NCBI GenBank assembly: GCA_022865455.1
Contig: JALHSY010000090.1
Span: 1-32,896, forward strand
DNA length: 32,896 nt
Reading direction: 5' to 3'
From: Candidatus Bathyarchaeota archaeon
Lineage (GTDB): Archaea; Thermoproteota; Bathyarchaeia; Bathyarchaeales; Bathycorpusculaceae
Part shown: one piece after another, positions 678 to 8,047 of the stretch
How the letters are laid out: every line of letters starts with the position of its first letter
Numbering within the stretch: position 1 is the first letter of the stretch
Notes under the pieces: generated by a model
Seen by the model: the letters and a program-made list of their open reading frames with translations, nothing else
Told to the model about the DNA's origin: nothing
Databases searched by the model: none
Position numbers and translations under genes: made by a program

Positions 678-2168
678 GTGTCAGAAATGGGTGAGGAAGA
701 GGGTCGCCATCCTACCGAGAAGGTTCCGCTTGAAAAAGTCAACGATTACGCATGGCGCATTCCCCAATACAGGCAGGCCATGAGAGTTCCAGGCATGGTC
801 TTCTCGGACAAGGACCTGTTGAGCAAGATGCAGAGTGATCGGACGCTTCAACAATGCGCGAACGTTGCATGTTTGCCAGGTATCTACAAGTACTCGATAA
901 CCTTGCCAGATGGGCATGAGGGTTATGGTTTTCCAATAGGCGGAGTGGCAGCAACAGACTATAATGAGGGCGTGATCAGCCCCGGCGGGGTTGGCTACGA
1001 CATAAACTGTGGGGTTCGTTTGCTTACCACGAATCTTTCCGAGAAGGACATAAGGCCTAAGCTTGTGCAACTGACAAACGTCATCTTTGACAATGTTCCG
1101 TCCGGGCTTGGGAGTCGTCGGAAAGACTTCAAAGTGACTGTTCACGACTTGGACAGGCTGGTCACGGAAGGCGTTCGAAATGTTATCGACCAAGGATTAG
1201 GTTGGCCTGAGGACGCGGAGCACTGTGAAGAGCTGGGTTGCATGAAGAACGCGAATCCCGATAAGGTTTCGGCAACGGCGAAGAATCGGGGGCTGACACA
1301 GATTGGCACCTTGGGTTCTGGAAACCATTTCTTGGAGATTCAGAAAGTGGACAAAATCTGCGATTCAAAGGCGGCCAAGACTTTCGGGATTGACCATGAG
1401 GGGCAGGTTACTGTCATGATTCATTGTGGCAGTCGCGGTTTCGGCCATCAGGTTTGTTCAGACTACCTGCGGGTTATGGAACGTGCTGTTCAGCGGTACA
1501 AGATTGTTCTGCCTGATCGTGAACTTGCATGTGCGCCTGGGAAGAGTCAGGAGGCAGAGGACTATTATCAGGCGATGGCTTGCGCGGTCAATTATGCGTT
1601 TGTGAATCGTCAGACGATTATGCATTGGGTGAGACAGAGTTTTCAGCAGGTTTTCAAGGAAGACGCTGAGAGGTTTGGGTTGAAGCTTGTTTATGACGTT
1701 GCTCACAACATTGCGAAGATTGAGGAGCACAAGGTTGATGGAGGGCAGAGGAAGAAGGTGTGGGTTCACAGGAAAGGTGCGACGCGGGCGTTTCCAGCTG
1801 GAAACCCGGAGCTTCCTCCTGATTACAGCGGTGCTGGTCAGCCTGTGCTTATCCCGGGGAGTATGGGGACGAGTTCTTGGCTTTTGGTGGGCACTGAGAA
1901 GGCGATGGAAGTCAGTTTCGGTTCCACGGCTCATGGCGCAGGGAGGATGATGAGCAGGAGTGCGGCGAAGAGAAACTATCGGGGTGGCGACATTAAGAAG
2001 GCTTTGGAGCAGCGCGGAATCTACGTCAGAGCAGCGAGTGCCATAGTCTTAGCGGAAGAGGCTGACCAGGCGTACAAGAATGTGGATGTTGTTGTAGATG
2101 TCAGTGACAAGGTGGGCATAGCCACGAAGGTGGCAAGGTTTGTTCCTATAGCCGTGGTAAAAGGCTAA
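678..2168 (+). CDS. rtcB: tRNA-splicing ligase RtcB
   Basis: RtcB joins RNA ends bearing 2',3'-cyclic phosphate to 5'-OH ends using GTP and Mn2+. In archaea it ligates tRNA exon halves after the splicing endonuclease has cut. The 496-residue length is normal for an intein-free archaeal RtcB. Diagnostic motifs are GYDINCG (D108 and C111, metal ligands), GSGNHFLE, HCGSRGFGH, DVAHN and the nucleotidyl-transfer motif GSTAHGAGR, where H419 is the expected GMP-accepting histidine. The start is GTG at 678; an in-frame ATG at 687 is an alternative. It matches two other elements in the window: the endonuclease EndA at 21.3 kb and a tRNA-Arg with two introns at 24.5 kb. No archease gene lies next to it. 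Confidence 0.97.
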   Translation: MSEMGEEEGRHPTEKVPLEKVNDYAWRIPQYRQAMRVPGMVFSDKDLLSKMQSDRTLQQCANVACLPGIYKYSITLPDGHEGYGFPIGGVAATDYNEGVISPGGVGYDINCGVRLLTTNLSEKDIRPKLVQLTNVIFDNVPSGLGSRRKDFKVTVHDLDRLVTEGVRNVIDQGLGWPEDAEHCEELGCMKNANPDKVSATAKNRGLTQIGTLGSGNHFLEIQKVDKICDSKAAKTFGIDHEGQVTVMIHCGSRGFGHQVCSDYLRVMERAVQRYKIVLPDRELACAPGKSQEAEDYYQAMACAVNYAFVNRQTIMHWVRQSFQQVFKEDAERFGLKLVYDVAHNIAKIEEHKVDGGQRKKVWVHRKGATRAFPAGNPELPPDYSGAGQPVLIPGSMGTSSWLLVGTEKAMEVSFGSTAHGAGRMMSRSAAKRNYRGGDIKKALEQRGIYVRAASAIVLAEEADQAYKNVDVVVDVSDKVGIATKVARFVPIAVVKG

Positions 2169-2180
2169 TCTTTTTCCCTT
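2168..2180 (+). terminator. T-rich tract after rtcB
   Basis: A pyrimidine-rich run with five consecutive Ts directly follows the rtcB stop codon, as at archaeal intrinsic terminators. It overlaps the tail of the convergent gene. Confidence 0.3.
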
Positions 2181-2573
2181 CTATTTCCGGTGTCGGTTTC
2201 CGATAATGTCTTCTCTTTCTTTTCTGATCAATTCTTTCTCTTCTGTCGAGTGTGCCTTGTGCAGCTGCTTCATGTACCATGTTCTTTCTCTGGCGTAGTA
2301 GATGCTTAAGGCTATTCCGAGACAGAGCAGTACGAAGCCGAAGACAGTCGCGGACAGGCCTAGGAGGTTGTATGGTTGGGGTGCGAGGTTGTATGGGATT
2401 ATTAGGAACCATTCTGGGTTCTCGCCTTTTGTGAGGGTTATGGTCTGGCCTCCGACGAAGAATATTGAGCCTATGGTGGTTATGAAGTAGCCGACGGTTT
2501 CGTTGTGTCTTGATTCTTCTGCTTTTTCGTGGAGGTATTCGCTGAAAAGCATTTCATCAACATGTTTAACCAC
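2181..2573 (-). CDS. Small membrane protein, two predicted helices
   Basis: A 130-residue protein I do not recognise. The N-terminal 25 residues are charged (MLFSEYLHEKAEES). Residues about 28-45 (GYFITTIGSIFFVGG) and 68-92 (LLGLSATVFGFVLLCLGIALSIYYA) look like transmembrane helices joined by a short loop with NPEW. The C-terminal tail is strongly charged and rich in K, R and E, consistent with a cytoplasmic helical segment. It converges on rtcB with 12 bases between the stops and diverges from the zinc-finger gene at 2640, apparently sharing one TATA element. Amino-acid make-up and the promoter support a real gene; the function is unknown. Confidence 0.7.
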   Translation of the reverse strand: MVKHVDEMLFSEYLHEKAEESRHNETVGYFITTIGSIFFVGGQTITLTKGENPEWFLIIPYNLAPQPYNLLGLSATVFGFVLLCLGIALSIYYARERTWYMKQLHKAHSTEEKELIRKEREDIIGNRHRK

Positions 2574-2586
2574 GTGGCAAGTGTTG

Positions 2587-2600
2587 TATAAGTTTTATTA
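2587..2600. promoter_or_regulatory. Shared TATA region of a divergent gene pair
   Basis: TATAAGTTTTATTA reads as a TATA element on both strands. It lies about 45 bases before the ATG at 2640 (+) and 15-27 bases before the ATG at 2573 (-). It is the only plausible promoter in this 66-base gap. Confidence 0.5.
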
Positions 2601-2639
2601 CTGGTTTCGAATAGTGTTTTCCTTGCTAAGTGGTCTGGG

Positions 2640-3314
2640 ATGCCGTTCAAGGACGAGTGCGGGCTGTGCAAGAGGGTGCTTTCTTACAGGCTTCTTAGGC
2701 GATGTTACAGGTGTGGGCGCTTGTACTGCAGGGATTGTATGGTTCCCGACGTTTCCACGGGTGATCCGACAAGGTTGTTGTGTCTTAACTGCGCTCGGAG
2801 GACGGTCTCGCCGAGGATTGTTTCCAAGTATGCTGGGCTGAATGGTTATCTGAAGTTCAGAGGCTCCTTTACGAATAGTGTTAAGCTGAGTTTCGCAAGG
2901 ATGGACGGAATTGTCGGGGACAATCTGCCGATGGAAGCGTACAAGACTGAAGGCTGGTGGAGCAATCTGCCCACGAACGTTCATGCTAAGGCTTGGCTGG
3001 ACGCAGGTTGGAATGTTGAGGAGGTGAACCTGAAAGAGGGGCATGTGGTCTTCAGAAAGGTCAAGGAGCTGCAGCCCACGGGTTCCAGAAGGAGAAGAGC
3101 TTCGCGGAGCGAGATTGAGAAGCCTTTCACTCCTGTTCGTGTTCGTATTCCTAAGCCTAGGACGCCGTCGAAGACGAAGGTGTCGAAGCTCTATGCTCGA
3201 ATCAAGAATCTGGAAAGACAGAGGACTTCCATGCCAGTGTATCGTGGCAGTTTCAGGCCTAAGACGAAGCATGAGAAGCGCTTGTTTAAGCCTGACGAGA
3301 AGCCGTCTCAGTAG
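2640..3314 (+). CDS. Eight-cysteine zinc-finger protein with basic tail
   Basis: A 224-residue protein of unknown function with three visible parts. Residues 7-51 hold four CxxC pairs (C7/C10, C22/C25, C30/C33, C48/C51), the spacing of a FYVE/RING/AN1-like cross-brace finger binding two zinc ions. Residues about 65-140 resemble a short archaeal domain with the signature WWSNLPTNVHAKAWLDAGW; I recall this as DUF7662-like, unverified. Residues 145-224 are very basic (SRRRRASR and many K/R-P-T repeats) and probably disordered, suiting nucleic-acid or ribosome contact. A TATA region lies 40-50 bases upstream. The combination suggests a nucleic-acid-associated or scaffold protein, but this is inference. 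Confidence 0.8.
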   Translation: MPFKDECGLCKRVLSYRLLRRCYRCGRLYCRDCMVPDVSTGDPTRLLCLNCARRTVSPRIVSKYAGLNGYLKFRGSFTNSVKLSFARMDGIVGDNLPMEAYKTEGWWSNLPTNVHAKAWLDAGWNVEEVNLKEGHVVFRKVKELQPTGSRRRRASRSEIEKPFTPVRVRIPKPRTPSKTKVSKLYARIKNLERQRTSMPVYRGSFRPKTKHEKRLFKPDEKPSQ

Positions 3315-3328
3315 AAAAAGTCAGAGAG

Positions 3329-3340
3329 AATTTTTATCTA
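3329..3340 (+). promoter_or_regulatory. TATA-like box before tRNA-Gly
   Basis: An AATTTTTATC stretch lies about 40 bases before the mature tRNA 5' end. Transcription would start near 3362, leaving a leader of about 17 nt for RNase P to remove. Confidence 0.4.
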
Positions 3341-3378
3341 GCCCACCCATGCTATTGTAGTGCGTCTGGGCGTGAGGG

Positions 3379-3457
3379 GCGGTCGTGGTCTAGACTGGTT
3401 TAGGACACAAGCCCTCCAAGCTTGTGATCCCGGGTTCAAATCCCGGCGACCGCACCA
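3379..3457 (+). tRNA. tRNA-Gly (anticodon UCC), CCA encoded
   Basis: Complete cloverleaf without intron: acceptor 3379-3385 pairs with 3447-3453, D stem GTCT/GGAC, anticodon stem CAAGC (3408-3412) with GCTTG (3420-3424), five-base variable loop, T stem CCGGG/CCCGG with loop TTCAAAT, discriminator A3454, and encoded CCA 3455-3457. The seven-base anticodon loop is CCTCCAA, so the anticodon at 3415-3417 is TCC, reading glycine codons GGA/GGG. Base 33 (3414) is C instead of the nearly universal U. A 28-base copy of the 3' end of a very similar tRNA lies at 11175-11202. Confidence 0.93.
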
Positions 3458-3497
3458 CTCTAGAACTGAATGCGTACAACTAGAATCGCTCCACTTT

Positions 3498-3507
3498 CCC
3501 TTTTTTG
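3498..3507 (+). terminator. T-tract downstream of tRNA-Gly
   Basis: A run of six Ts about 45 bases after the CCA end is a typical archaeal termination signal. Confidence 0.4.
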
Positions 3508-3780
3508 ATTCGCTTCCTGAGGTGAGAAGGTTTTGAAAAACGACTCAGGAGACTTAAGCCCGTTATAACCTTATAGAATGATGGTTGTGAGCGTCACACG
3601 CGCAGACGCCAGTCTACTGGATGTAATGGATTCTCCTGTCGCGAGGAAGTGACTGAGTTCATGTGGCTGATTCTAACTGGCAACCTCAAACTCTCCTGCA
3701 AATGAGATACGGCTCCGAACACTTCATACACTAGTTCACGGAAAAAACTCACAATCGCACAATACGGTTTTACAATCATT
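3508..3780. other. Intergenic stretch without recognisable gene
   Basis: No open frame here has protein-like composition on either strand, and I see no tRNA or strong hairpin. It marks the start of a gene-poor accessory zone. Confidence 0.5.
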
Positions 3781-3790
3781 CACTATAAGA
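3781..3790 (+). promoter_or_regulatory. TATA-like box beside the dyad array
   Basis: CACTATAAGA would set a + strand transcription start near 3808-3812, inside the inverted-repeat cluster that follows. No clear reading frame lies downstream. Confidence 0.3.
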
Positions 3791-3801
3791 AAAAACGACT
3801 T

Positions 3802-3836
3802 CACAATATTGTGGTTTATTGTGGTTCAACCACAAT
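3802..3836. repeat. Operator-like cluster of ATTGTGGTT repeats
   Basis: CACAATATTGTG at 3802-3813 is a perfect palindrome. ATTGTGGTT occurs at 3808-3816 and 3818-3826 and in inverted form at 3828-3836, so 3818-3836 is a perfect 9-1-9 inverted repeat. Overlapping direct and inverted half-sites a turn apart look like binding sites for a dimeric DNA-binding protein. The one-base centre makes an RNA hairpin unlikely. Confidence 0.6.
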
Positions 3837-3901
3837 CAAGCCCCTTGTGAAGGCTAATCTAGAGAATTGGTCTAGACTAACAACACAGGCAGGAAGCACA
3901 C

Positions 3902-3918
3902 GCACTAGAATCTAGTGC
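3902..3918. repeat. Perfect 17-bp inverted repeat
   Basis: GCACTAGA-A-TCTAGTGC is a perfect dyad with a single central base, lying 6 bases after the end of the minus-strand gene at 3925-4197. It could be a protein-binding site or part of a terminator. Confidence 0.6.
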
Positions 3919-3924
3919 ATGCAG

Positions 3925-4197
3925 TCAGAAGCGAAGGCCTAAAACACGCTGGGGCGCGTTCACAATCGCCCTATGAATCCAAGTGGTCTTCGCCTTGTCA
4001 GACATGAAGGCCACGAGTGACTCGTTTTTGTAGTATGGACAGCTTAAGGTATGGTATTTCTTGGCTTCTGCGCGTAGGCGCCGGCACAACTGCACGGCTG
4101 AAGGCTTTTCCTTCTCTTGGGTCCAGCTTTCACGTTTGATGTTTGGAAGCAACACCCTGAGCGGACAACTAGGACAGAGCTGTGGCTCGTCTTTCAT
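3925..4197 (-). CDS. Hypothetical 90-aa protein with CPSC motif
   Basis: Not recognised. Cysteines at CPSC near residue 8, then single cysteines around residues 38 and 53, could bind a metal. The rest is basic and mixed (EAKKYHTLSCPYYKNESL). The ATG at 4197 overlaps the stop of an upstream open frame by the ATGA arrangement, which points to translational coupling and makes both frames more credible. It lies in the gene-poor zone and could be a remnant of an accessory module. Confidence 0.5.
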   Translation of the reverse strand: MKDEPQLCPSCPLRVLLPNIKRESWTQEKEKPSAVQLCRRLRAEAKKYHTLSCPYYKNESLVAFMSDKAKTTWIHRAIVNAPQRVLGLRF

Positions 4198-4352
4198 GAT
4201 GTTTCATGCTCATAATATTCTTTGTGCCATTGCAAGCTTCTTTCTCTTGCTTTCTTGCGTTTTCCGAAACGAACGGCCTTAACAAGCTTGATCTTATCTA
4301 TTGTCTCTCGATATTTGACTGTGAAGAAGCCGACCTTGCCTCTGCATTCTAT
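4194..4352 (-). pseudogene. Open frame of about 52 codons without a normal start
   Basis: The frame reads as a protein-like basic sequence (IECRGKVGFFTVKY, then KAVRFGKRKKARERSLQWHKEYY) and ends in TGA overlapping the ATG of the next gene. It has no ATG, GTG or TTG at its beginning: the first plausible codon is ATA at 4350-4352, and an in-frame stop lies about 30 bases further upstream. The TATA-like element at 4378-4385 would place a leaderless start close to this ATA. It is either a gene whose start was mutated from ATG, a truncated remnant, or a rare ATA-initiated gene. Confidence 0.4.
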
Positions 4353-4377
4353 GCGCGCTGCCTTGTCCCGAAATTGG

Positions 4378-4385
4378 TTTTAAAT
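4378..4385. promoter_or_regulatory. Bidirectional TATA-like element
   Basis: TTTTAAAT reads as TATA on both strands. On the + strand it predicts initiation near 4408, exactly where a structured stem begins. On the - strand it predicts initiation near 4355, where the small reading-frame pair begins. Confidence 0.45.
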
Positions 4386-4407
4386 GGTTTTTATTCTTCT
4401 TTTGACT

Positions 4408-4512
4408 GTTCGCGCCCAGTACGGGCTTGTTTGACTGGCGAACCCTGATCGTGTTGACGGATGGCAAGTCACGGGAGCCCCGGGAGATCCCGCAGGGAGC
4501 AGGGTTTCCCCA
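4408..4512 (+). ncRNA. Candidate structured noncoding RNA
   Basis: A GC-rich block stands out in an AT-rich spacer about 25 bases after a TATA box. Pairings visible by eye: GTTCGC (4408-4413) with GCGAAC (4438-4443), enclosing GCCC/GGGC (4414-4417 with 4423-4426, loop AGTAC); ACCCTG (4442-4447) with CAGGGT (4500-4505), enclosing a TGAC/GTCA hairpin and a CGGG-AGAT-CCCG hairpin. No convincing reading frame covers it. It does not match RNase P, SRP or tRNA as I know them. There is no T-run at its end, so the 3' boundary is uncertain. Confidence 0.35.
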
Positions 4513-4693
4513 TACCCAACCCCCTCAAAAAGGAATAAATACCATTTTACACCATTTTAGGGACAAGCCAGCGCGCTTGGCCATGGGTTCGTTAGTGTGC
4601 TAGGCTGCGAATCCGTTTCATCCTGGCATGATAGGCTGGGCGGTCCAAGAGTTAATGAGGAAGGCGTTTCATAAGAGTGTTGAGAGAGTCTGT

Positions 4694-5050
4694 TTATGAG
4701 CAGGCGTAGACGGTTTGACAGGCTCGAATGCCAGGGTTGTATTTACAAGGCGAGCACGTACTGTTGGAGACAGTGTCCGTACAACATTTGGAAGAGAGAA
4801 GAATGCTGAAGCGCACGGTAAACGATTGCAGCGACTTCATACTCTCTTGTACGGTTTTGTGTTGTCTGGAAGGAGTGGCGCGCGCGCTGAAACCCTTAGA
4901 GCTTAGTTCACTGTAAGGTCCCTGAAAAACATACCATGCTACCTTGCCACTAACATGCATCCAATTGGGAAGTTCCCCAGCCTGCACTTTCCCATTAGCA
5001 AACTTGTCAAACTGCTTGTGAACATCACTGCAACAAGTCATGTCAACCAT
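4694..5050 (-). CDS. Hypothetical protein, possibly decayed effector-binding fragment
   Basis: 118 residues. The N-terminal half looks real: after MVDMTCCSDVHKQF comes KVAWYVFQGPYSEL, which weakly resembles the beta-strand/GPY region of GyrI-like effector-binding domains. After about residue 55 the sequence becomes low-complexity, serine- and cysteine-rich, and runs antisense to the microprotein at 4696, suggesting that the true frame was lost. A TATA box (CTATAATGC near 5092-5101) and a purine-rich GGAAAAGGAAG just before the ATG support expression. It is best read as a small gene or a truncated relic. Confidence 0.35.
   Translation of the reverse strand: MVDMTCCSDVHKQFDKFANGKVQAGELPNWMHVSGKVAWYVFQGPYSELSSKGFSARATPSRQHKTVQESMKSLQSFTVRFSILLSSKCCTDTVSNSTCSPCKYNPGIRACQTVYACS
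4696..4809 (+). CDS. 37-aa cysteine-rich microprotein
   Basis: Too short for usual gene calls, but strikingly protein-like. It starts with SRRRRFDRLE, then CQGC, then STYCWRQCPYNIW, ending in cysteine; five cysteines (12, 15, 23, 27, 37) suggest a small metal-binding or disulphide fold. The YCWRQ-PYN-W motif recurs in a second frame at 6625-6834, which argues for selection rather than chance. It lies antisense to the tail of the 4694-5050 frame, so the two cannot both be fully functional in an ordinary way. No good ribosome-binding site or TATA box is seen. Confidence 0.4.
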   Translation: MSRRRRFDRLECQGCIYKASTYCWRQCPYNIWKREEC

Positions 5051-5174
5051 CTTCCTTTTCCTTATTTGACCTTCACTTACTAGGTCTAGTTTGCATTATA
5101 GCATTTTGCCAGAGACATGCCTAATCTCAGAATAGCCCATTTCTATTTCTGAAGTCAAACATTCTGGAGACAGG

Positions 5175-5939
5175 TCATCTCTTTCTGCAGACAAACAGTA
5201 TTTTTCTACCCTCTTCTCTCAGATTGGCTTCAAGGATCTCAAAATGTTCAGAGAGAGCTGACTTCATTTTGGCAACTGGGTAAATAGTTTCTTTGAATCT
5301 GTACTTGTTGAGTTGGTAAAGTCCATTTGGGAGTCTTTCAAAGATTCTAGAATCCCAAGTCAGTGTATTGCCCTTCACCATCTCTTTGTCATAGTAGTAT
5401 CCCTTTGGGAACTCCTTAACTGATGAAGTAGACCTATTGTATTTTTCCAGCCAATGAAGCGTATCTCTCAGCATTTTTGGAGTATAAACATCAAAAATGA
5501 ACAGCCCATCCCTGTTGAGATGCTCATTCACTGCTTTGAACGTTGATTTCCACTGGTCAAAGTCTTTCAGAAAGTTGATTGCATCGTTAGCAGAGAATAT
5601 GACATCGAATTTCTCATCAATCTTGAAGTTGTGCATGCTGGAAACAAAGAACCTGCCCCTTGGGATCCTCCTCCTGCAAACCTCAATGTAGTCCCTTTCA
5701 ATGTCCAAACCATAGACAGCATACCTCTCTGGAAGATTGACCAAGACCATTCCAATTCCACACCCTATCTCTAGTATCTTCTTCGCCTGCTTGCGATATT
5801 CCTTTATGGATTCCAAGACATAGTGTGCCCTCGCTCTTGCTCCTTGCTTGCTTGTAAGCGATTCCCAAAAACTCACAAAAGGTTTTGACGTCTTGCTTCG
5901 GTGCTCATATTTGACCATGCACAACCCCCAAAGTTGCAT
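5175..5939 (-). CDS. Class I SAM-dependent methyltransferase
   Basis: 254 residues with a Rossmann-type methyltransferase core. Motif I ILEIGCGIG at 55-63 binds AdoMet; VYGLDIERDYIE supplies the acidic residue for the ribose; FDVIFSANDAINFL is the motif-IV strand; and a later beta strand GLFIFDVYTPK matches the post-core topology of the UbiE/methyltransf_25 type. The C-terminal third (KYRFKETIYPVAKM) probably makes the substrate lid. The substrate is unknown. An alternative ATG at 5918 is preceded by GGGGGT; the 5939 ATG is only about 30 bases from a TATA-like AATATC. It stands alone among accessory genes and may be horizontally acquired. Confidence 0.88.
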   Translation of the reverse strand: MQLWGLCMVKYEHRSKTSKPFVSFWESLTSKQGARARAHYVLESIKEYRKQAKKILEIGCGIGMVLVNLPERYAVYGLDIERDYIEVCRRRIPRGRFFVSSMHNFKIDEKFDVIFSANDAINFLKDFDQWKSTFKAVNEHLNRDGLFIFDVYTPKMLRDTLHWLEKYNRSTSSVKEFPKGYYYDKEMVKGNTLTWDSRIFERLPNGLYQLNKYRFKETIYPVAKMKSALSEHFEILEANLREEGRKILFVCRKR

Positions 5940-5999
5940 CCAGCAGAACGACTATTTGTCTTTTGAGTCAGATATTGTTTGTCAACTTCTACTCTTCGC

Positions 6000-6154
6000 G
6001 CGCGCTAGGACGTTGCTAAATTCAGATTTTAATAGATTTTATTCGGTCAGAACATCAACCATCTTTCCGTCAAGAACATCTAAATACGTACCGAGAAAAA
6101 GCCGACACCAATTAAAATCCATTTTTGTCCGAATTTAGCAACAGGCTGGCGCGC
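6000..6154. mobile_element. 155-bp MITE-like inverted-repeat element
   Basis: The ends are imperfect inverted repeats of about 47 bp: GCGCGC-YAG followed by the shared core GTTGCTAAATTC, at 6000-6046 and in reverse at 6108-6154. The interior keeps the first 16 or so codons of the winged-helix gene of the larger copy at 7567-8047 (YLDVLDGKMVDVLT), with the initiator ATG changed to ACG, joined directly to that gene's last codons. It is therefore an internally deleted derivative of the larger element, missing roughly 0.3 kb. Confidence 0.65.
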
Positions 6155-6207
6155 TCAAAACTTTTGGCAGAGTTGAAGGAGATACTCCTGAAAAGCATAC
6201 ACAGCTC

Positions 6208-6624: not shown

Positions 6625-6834
6625 CTTATGACACTCTTTGGATATGAGTGGCCCACACGCGTCAAGATGAGAGAGATAATCAAGGGGACTGTTTATTGCT
6701 GGAGGCAGCGTCCTTACAACGTCTGGCGCCTTTATTCTCACTACAGCATACTTAGTCTAGTCCTAACAAGAGAAGCAGCAGAAAACATTGGGAGAACCGA
6801 CAATGCCGTCTCACCAACCTACTTCAACACATAA
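6625..6834 (+). CDS. Second YCWRQ-PYN microprotein-like frame
   Basis: The ATG at 6625 gives about 69 residues; an inner ATG at 6667 begins MREIIKGTVYCWRQRPYNVW. The core matches the 37-aa microprotein at 4696 (YCWRQCPYNIW), but one cysteine is replaced by arginine and no CxxC precedes it. The downstream residues (SHYSILSLVLTREAAENIG) have no counterpart. A TATA box lies at 6541-6548. It is either a diverged paralogue or a decaying copy. Confidence 0.3.
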   Translation, partial: LMTLFGYEWPTRVKMREIIKGTVYCWRQRPYNVWRLYSHYSILSLVLTREAAENIGRTDNAVSPTYFNT

Positions 6835-7069
6835 TTTTGGGACAAGGCAACGCGCGTCCTAACCGTTTACAGTGAGGCATGGTTCCAGCATAGCGTGGTC
6901 TATTGCCGTTTTCAAGCGCGCGCTTTAAATTTTAGTTTTTTTATCATTTACTACACTTGCCTTGTTTGACATTCGTTTCTTGCGGTTCTTTTGTGTGGTT
7001 TTATGGTTGAAAAATGCTTCTTTTTGGAGGGAACAGCCAAAACACGCCCATCAGAATTTGTGCGTGTGC
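6835..7069. other. AT-rich spacer with GCGCGC motifs
   Basis: No supported gene. It holds ACGCGCG at about 6852 and GCGCGCGC at about 6917, part of a cluster of such motifs between 4.57 and 8.05 kb. Confidence 0.4.
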
Positions 7070-7566: not shown

Positions 7567-8047
7567 TTAGCACGCGCTAGCTTATTGCTAAATTCGGACT
7601 TTAGTAGATTTATTCGGTTTCATGATTAGCCTACAGTTTTGGGTTACGCATCTGTCTCTTGCCAGTTTGCAGTAACCGCCTTTCTCATGCCTGCAGGCCT
7701 TCTTGAGCCTCGAAAACTCCAGAACAACGACACTGGACTGAGGAGTCGCTCTGGGTTGAGGAGCTTCTGCGGGGCGGTACTGGAGTTCGGGCCTTCCACG
7801 GCCTTTACTCGGCTTTTTCTCCTTCAGGATGAGCTCCCCAGAGCCAAGCCGCACCAGATGGATGATGACTGTTGAACGTGCAAACCCTGAATCCCTAACC
7901 AACTCAGCAAGCGTAAGAGGCTCGTCTTTCCTCGTCAGAACATCAAGTATCTTCCTGTCAAAAGAATCCAGATACATACCACGAAAAAAGCTAAACCTAT
8001 CAAAATCTATTTTTGTCTGAATTATGCAACAGGCTGGCGCGCGCTAT
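7567..8047. mobile_element. 481-bp inverted-repeat element carrying a winged-helix gene
   Basis: The ends at 7567-7611 and 8003-8047 are imperfect inverted repeats (about 33 of 45 positions match by eye) with the same GCGCGC-YAG and TTGC-AATTC core as the 155-bp element at 6000-6154. The single gene inside (7588-7977) has its stop codon within one repeat and its promoter region in the other. TA dinucleotides flank both ends, which could be a target duplication. No transposase is encoded, so movement would need help in trans. Confidence 0.6.
7588..7977 (-). CDS. Winged-helix DNA-binding protein with Cys-rich tail
   Basis: 129 residues. Residues 1-65 form a winged helix: MYLDSFDRKILDVL helix 1, LTLAELVRDSGFARSTVIIHL helix-turn-helix, and a wing with KGRGRPELQYR, as in ArsR/MarR-like or archaeal transposon-associated regulators. 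After a proline-rich linker, residues 95-115 carry four cysteines (C95, C103, C110, C115) spaced 7, 6 and 4 apart, able to bind zinc or an Fe-S cluster. The gene fills an inverted-repeat element, and a deleted copy of the same gene remains at 6000-6154. It may regulate, or bind the ends of, its own element. Confidence 0.8.
   Translation of the reverse strand: MYLDSFDRKILDVLTRKDEPLTLAELVRDSGFARSTVIIHLVRLGSGELILKEKKPSKGRGRPELQYRPAEAPQPRATPQSSVVVLEFSRLKKACRHEKGGYCKLARDRCVTQNCRLIMKPNKSTKVRI

Follow-up and report, generated by a model that had tools for sequence, protein, structure and literature searches.

A stretch of 32,896 nucleotides from a Candidatus Bathyarchaeota archaeon (assembly GCA_022865455.1, contig JALHSY010000090.1; hereafter the window) carries what is very probably a mobile insertion cassette (MIC) of Bathyarchaeia. 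MICs have inverted ends and a passenger gene, lack a transposase, and are mobilised in trans by an insertion sequence (IS) with matching ends (for the definition and MIC231 of Bacillus cereus, PMC3913671; for MICs and MITEs, PMC3129680). The element described here is a non-autonomous transposable element of ~480 bp, with a single gene for a wHTH-Cys4 protein. Because its outer ends match those of ISs and no transposase lies inside, we read it as a MIC that is presumably moved in trans by resident ISs. The part played by its protein is one that we infer.

The window element extends from 7568 to 8046 (~479 bp), with imperfect inverted ends of ~45-50 bp around one 129-aa winged-helix/Cys4 gene. 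Its parts, and the other elements in the window, are as follows.

7568-7595, plus strand: left outer end, type C (TAGCACGCGCTAGCTTATTGCTAAATTC); matches the IS end at G001:C94 (L205) and G105:C81 (L204).
7596-7620, plus strand: left inner repeat, clade II type, degenerate; holds the surroundings of the 3' end of the gene.
7588-7977, minus strand: wHTH-Cys4 gene, 129 aa, whose stop codon (7588-7590) falls within the left repeat.
7993-8018, minus strand: right inner repeat, with an AT-rich, TATA-like stretch at 8003-8010 (by eye), ~26-33 nt upstream of the ATG.
8019-8046, minus strand: right outer end, type C (TAGCGCGCGCCAGCCTGTTGCATAATTC); matched to IS ends.
5998-6155, plus strand: second family copy, an internally deleted derivative that keeps both ends and a 5' gene stub; 78-81% identical to the two ends of the window element.
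4353-4576, plus strand: third element, 224 bp long and with type B ends, derived from a clade I cassette; over its full length it shares 94-96% identity with copies at G000:C57, G000:C125 and G105:C197.
6741-6855, plus strand: relic (solo end) of a type B IS, of which the final 115 bp remain, including one end and the C-terminus of the transposase; it shares 85% identity with the G105:C234 IS.

Arms 7567-7611 and 8003-8047 form an inverted repeat in which, by eye, 33 of 45 positions agree. Their best local alignment pairs 7568-7620 with 7993-8046 and scores 45. Among 20,000 pairs of the same geometry drawn from the window, a score of 25 marked the 99.9% level, and the highest score was 45, the same as for the element itself. 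A chance inverted repeat is thereby ruled out as the source of these ends. A generic repeat finder at default settings did not list the 7567-7611/8003-8047 pair. The first-pass annotation had described imperfect 45-bp terminal inverted repeats around a single winged-helix/Cys4 gene, with the stop codon inside one repeat and no transposase; this description holds in each respect, the wHTH gene being the only ORF of note within the element. The promoter, which the same annotation had placed in the other repeat, is indeed predicted there, in the right repeat, from the TATA-like stretch.

The element belongs to a dispersed family. The window's own genome (G000) is represented by an incomplete assembly of 2.01 Mb in 257 contigs, and G001 is a relative from the same genus. 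A DNA search detected copies at window 5998-6155 and on contig C30, both of which retain two ends and a stub of the gene's 5' part. A protein profile search recovered ~20 strong wHTH homologues in the order, and an independent test found inverted ends around most of the homologous genes, with scores above those of shuffled controls; this test failed at L007, L009, L039 and L072, and for copies at contig ends. Full-length inverted-repeat units in Bathyarchaeia cluster at 476-494 bp. With a sequence model of the ends, 54 family ends can be recognised in G000, 24 in G001, 32 in G105, and 38 in G077.

Most family ends in G000 belong to shorter deletion derivatives, which outnumber the full copies and fall into size classes near 150, 183, 224, and 300-309 bp. 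Members of the 224-bp class, including window 4353-4576, share 94-96% identity from end to end at four unrelated loci, while those of the 309-bp class share 94-97% at three loci. The flanks of these end-to-end copies differ between loci, and a BLAST match between the window and G105 stops at the element boundaries. End-to-end copies with differing flanks, and a match that stops at the element ends, are the mark of transposition, and of transposition of the derivatives themselves. Internal deletions yield shorter, MITE-like derivatives that spread in turn. The gene is not needed in cis, as derivatives without it show.

The suggestion of a non-autonomous mobile element, made in the first-pass annotation, is accordingly strengthened. 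The multiple precise-ended copies that it proposed to look for in related genomes were found, at different loci in G000 as well as in the three relatives whose ends are counted above. Single-copy, syntenic occurrence without inverted ends, which it had set against mobility, does not match the data, since the copies are dispersed and inverted-ended. The dispersed copies also rule out a conserved, syntenic host regulator.

Ends found singly led to full ISs, the first of which lies at G000:C139:491-1572 and encodes a 328-aa transposase. Two further contigs end inside this IS, as is expected of a multicopy IS, and additional ISs occur on C64, C125, and C108, and in G001 and G105. These IS5/IS1182-like ISs of ~1.1-1.3 kb carry the same outer ~22 bp as the cassettes, past which the IS and cassette sequences diverge. 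Four end types are common to ISs and cassettes and match four IS lineages: GCGCGCATGCGTGTTCCTAAATT (type A), GCGCGCTGGCTTGTCCCTAAATT (type B), GCGCGCCAGCTTGTTGCTAAATT (type C, that of the window element), and GCGCGCGGGCGGATTAAATAATT (type D). An intact type C IS is present in the sister genome G001 (C94, L205) and in G105 (C81, L204), and was not found in the incomplete, 257-contig assembly of G000. A fifth IS end type, GCGCGCTAGGCTGTTTAGAAATTA, occurs at G001:C79 (L209) and G016:C9 (L224, L227); no wHTH cassette with this end type was seen.

The two transposases that were scanned both match DDE_Tnp_1 (PF01609, E-values of 5.8e-23 and 1.1e-12) and DUF772. The ISs can be assigned to a family only tentatively: they are nearest to IS1182 and IS5, but their transposases score below the NCBIfam equivalog cut-offs (146 bits against 270 for IS1182, and 102 against 140 for IS5_4). 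The order was represented by 163 genomes, of which 12 have the transposase (E<=1e-40), 13 a strong wHTH homologue (about 1e-10 or better), and 8 both (Fisher p ~5e-8, a value that is too small because the genomes are related). In genomes that yielded no IS, the cassette copies inspected were frameshifted (L002), internally deleted (L005), or had other ends (L004). Shared ends and co-occurrence suggest that the cassettes are presumably moved in trans by IS transposases: the DDE enzymes of resident IS5/IS1182-like ISs would act on the matching outer ~22 bp.

Cassettes of this family have also been recovered from contigs with other labels. A contig labelled Deltaproteobacteria (L061, PEUO01000239.1) contains a type D cassette; its gene and that of G001:C200 are identical over 95 codons, for which mis-binning is the simplest reading. 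A contig from a viral collection (L229, IMGVR_UViG_3300050336_000135) bears a wHTH cassette whose outer ends are of a further kind and lack GCGCGC.

The terminal repeats of the cassettes have two parts. Inward of the outer 22 bp, an inner repeat differs between protein clades. In clade I cassettes, TGGTNNAAAATGGT lies inside each end, and the poorest ends depart from it by up to 3 mismatches, whereas clade II (the window gene, L076, L038, and L002) has a AATAGATTTTAAT-like motif instead, which is not recognisable at every end. The inner motif is poorly matched at one end of L229 and of L073, and at the left end of the window element. Neither clade's inner motif was found in 12 ISs at this match quality. 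At the 5' end of the gene, the inner repeat overlaps the predicted promoter. Its occurrence at the 3' end as well suggests a role beyond transcription, although inheritance within the inverted repeat could explain it too. The gene and the inner repeat at the ends together form the constant core of the element.

The outer ends vary independently of this core. Mapped onto the protein tree, end type requires at least nine changes by parsimony over six labels (the least possible being five), on a tree that has weak support at several branches. A well-supported pair with different end types is formed by the close relatives L068 (type D) and L069 (type B). Hybrid-ended elements are as expected from recombination between elements, and include L174 621-771 (D and A), L144 (B and A), L036 (A and B), and L108 (B and C), as well as L159. 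Outer ends have been swapped repeatedly between IS types, probably in this way. The unusual part of the system is its modularity: the outer 22 bp are swapped between IS types while the inner repeat stays with the protein clade.

The passenger protein has a winged helix, for which Pfam HTH_IclR scores above its cut-off. AlphaFold pLDDT is ~87-95 over residues 1-50; the winged helix is well predicted to roughly residues 1-70, and the Cys4 part poorly. Foldseek matches include wHTH regulators; of the solved folds, archaeal AbfR2 and metal-responsive repressors are among the nearest. Four cysteines (C95, C103, C110, and C115) are conserved in 17-18 of 18 homologues. PHROGs returned nothing strong, and the Lrs14 family profile (NCBIfam NF040939) gave 30.5 bits, below its 90-bit cut-off. 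A link to Z-DNA, raised by the (GC)n ends and a weak similarity of the wHTH to Zalpha domains, seems doubtful: the Asn and Tyr of the Zalpha recognition helix are not conserved (by eye).

Pairwise dN/dS values are mostly 0.08-0.35, rising to 0.5 in pairs that include broken copies; for the window gene and L076 the value is 0.20. These low values indicate that the gene is under purifying selection and is maintained. Together with an inner repeat that tracks the protein clade and not the ISs, this selection is circumstantial evidence that the protein binds the repeats or regulates its element. Its most likely role, with chances that seem to us about even, is to bind the inner repeats, regulate its own promoter, and possibly mark or modulate the ends.

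Two other roles for the protein would also fit selection on its gene. The same cassette could encode, in the wHTH protein, a helper that binds both inner repeats and thereby promotes transposition, or licenses it, for several transposases; outer ends would then be exchangeable while the gene and the inner repeat remain linked. The inner repeat is indeed present at both ends though a promoter is needed at one only, it follows the protein clade across end types, and numerous derivatives retain both copies of it. However, a repeat at both ends may merely reflect an inherited inverted repeat, and small IS-derived elements without an inner repeat exist (L027, L029, L182, L183, and L186), and we consider such a helper unlikely. 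It is similarly doubtful that the identity of the element resides in its DNA-binding protein and inner terminal repeats rather than in a transposase, with several resident transposases recruited by exchange of the outer 22 bp only. The gene could also be an ordinary passenger that regulates host genes, in which case the cassette would gain via its host and the inner repeats would be the promoter and its relics. This role would fit the resemblance of the protein to Lrs14/AbfR-type regulators of archaeal hosts, but it seems improbable, given that the inner repeat is conserved at both ends and is specific to the protein clade, and that the gene has been lost from most copies in G000.

Insertion sites were examined for traces of the transposition process. 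TA is present on both sides of 13 of 62 elements (Fisher p 0.013), so that a 2-bp TA target duplication is weakly supported; junction direct repeats of 3-8 bp were absent among the elements examined. Target-site duplication is usual, though not obligatory, in MICs. Empty sites, which the first-pass annotation had named as a further sign of mobility, did not materialise: the flanks of 15 G000 elements, compared with G001 and G105, and those of 13 G001/G105 elements, compared with seven genomes, gave mainly one-sided matches, and none of them revealed an empty site that was clean on both sides. The C257 element is missing from G001, yet the site also differs by an insertion of ~3 kb with a repeated tRNA 3' part. 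This insertion in G000 (L091, about 2120-5245) is flanked by the repeated tRNA part and has a cassette at one boundary. At the C81 site both flanks match, but ~850 bp of other DNA is present there in G001.

Homology between G000 and G001 also breaks at GCGCGC. A 1,128-bp methyltransferase-gene block (window 4879-6006) recurs with 99% identity, in a different context, at G001:C127 (L104). Both of its edges are GCGCGCGC in both genomes, and no longer inverted repeat was seen at them. Homology between G105:C112 and C200 likewise breaks at GCGCGC. G000 contains 112 occurrences of GCGCGCGC and 59 of the reversed pattern. Several of the GCGCGCGC sites adjoin no recognised element end. The breaks and the uneven counts would fit an account in which GCGCGC is a recombination or target hot spot, and segments bounded by it are shuffled by another mechanism, rather than being transposon ends. 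This is very unlikely for the cassettes, as their conserved ends reach ~22 bp and more past GCGCGC and match transposase-encoding ISs, and fixed-length copies recur at unrelated loci.

Interpreted as a MIC, the element represents a multicopy family, maintained by selection, from an archaeal class without cultured members, and its passenger may act on its own element. Naturally occurring end exchanges set the part of the terminal repeat that matches the transposase apart from a second, protein-linked part. The question of how non-autonomous elements survive the loss or change of their helper thus becomes testable with short DNAs and two proteins.

Several known systems resemble the cassettes in part. 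An identity with integron-like attC cassettes seems doubtful, no matching core having been seen by eye. The IS5/IS1182 family shares DDE_Tnp_1 and DUF772 domains with the ISs described here, whose outer ends match the cassettes, whereas the cassettes have no transposase. Archaeal regulators of the Lrs14/AbfR type resemble the passenger protein in wHTH fold, size, and weak profile similarity, but the passenger scores far below the family cut-offs, has a C-terminal Cys4 motif, and is itself the product of a mobile cassette. The MITEs known from archaea and bacteria are short, multicopy, internally deleted elements with inverted ends that are moved by ISs (reviewed in PMC10969869). The 145-310-bp derivatives fit this description directly; the full cassette, in contrast, keeps a conserved gene, and the parent of most derivatives is the cassette and not an IS.

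The closest likeness is to MICs such as MIC231 of Bacillus cereus and mic-qnrD, with which the cassette shares inverted ends, a passenger gene, and the lack of a transposase; mobilisation in trans, as in those MICs, is a property that we infer for it from sequence. The family combines inverted ends around a passenger, no transposase, ISs with matching ends in the same or related genomes, and precise-ended copies at several loci. The MICs of the literature consulted here come from bacteria, with an enzyme or resistance gene as passenger (PMC3913671). No archaeal MIC was seen described in the open-access literature to which the search was confined, so that an earlier account could have been overlooked. 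The archaeal host, the DNA-binding passenger, the interchangeable end types (at least four), and the protein-linked inner repeat set the cassette apart from other MICs and seem to be new, and its many deletion derivatives distinguish it further.
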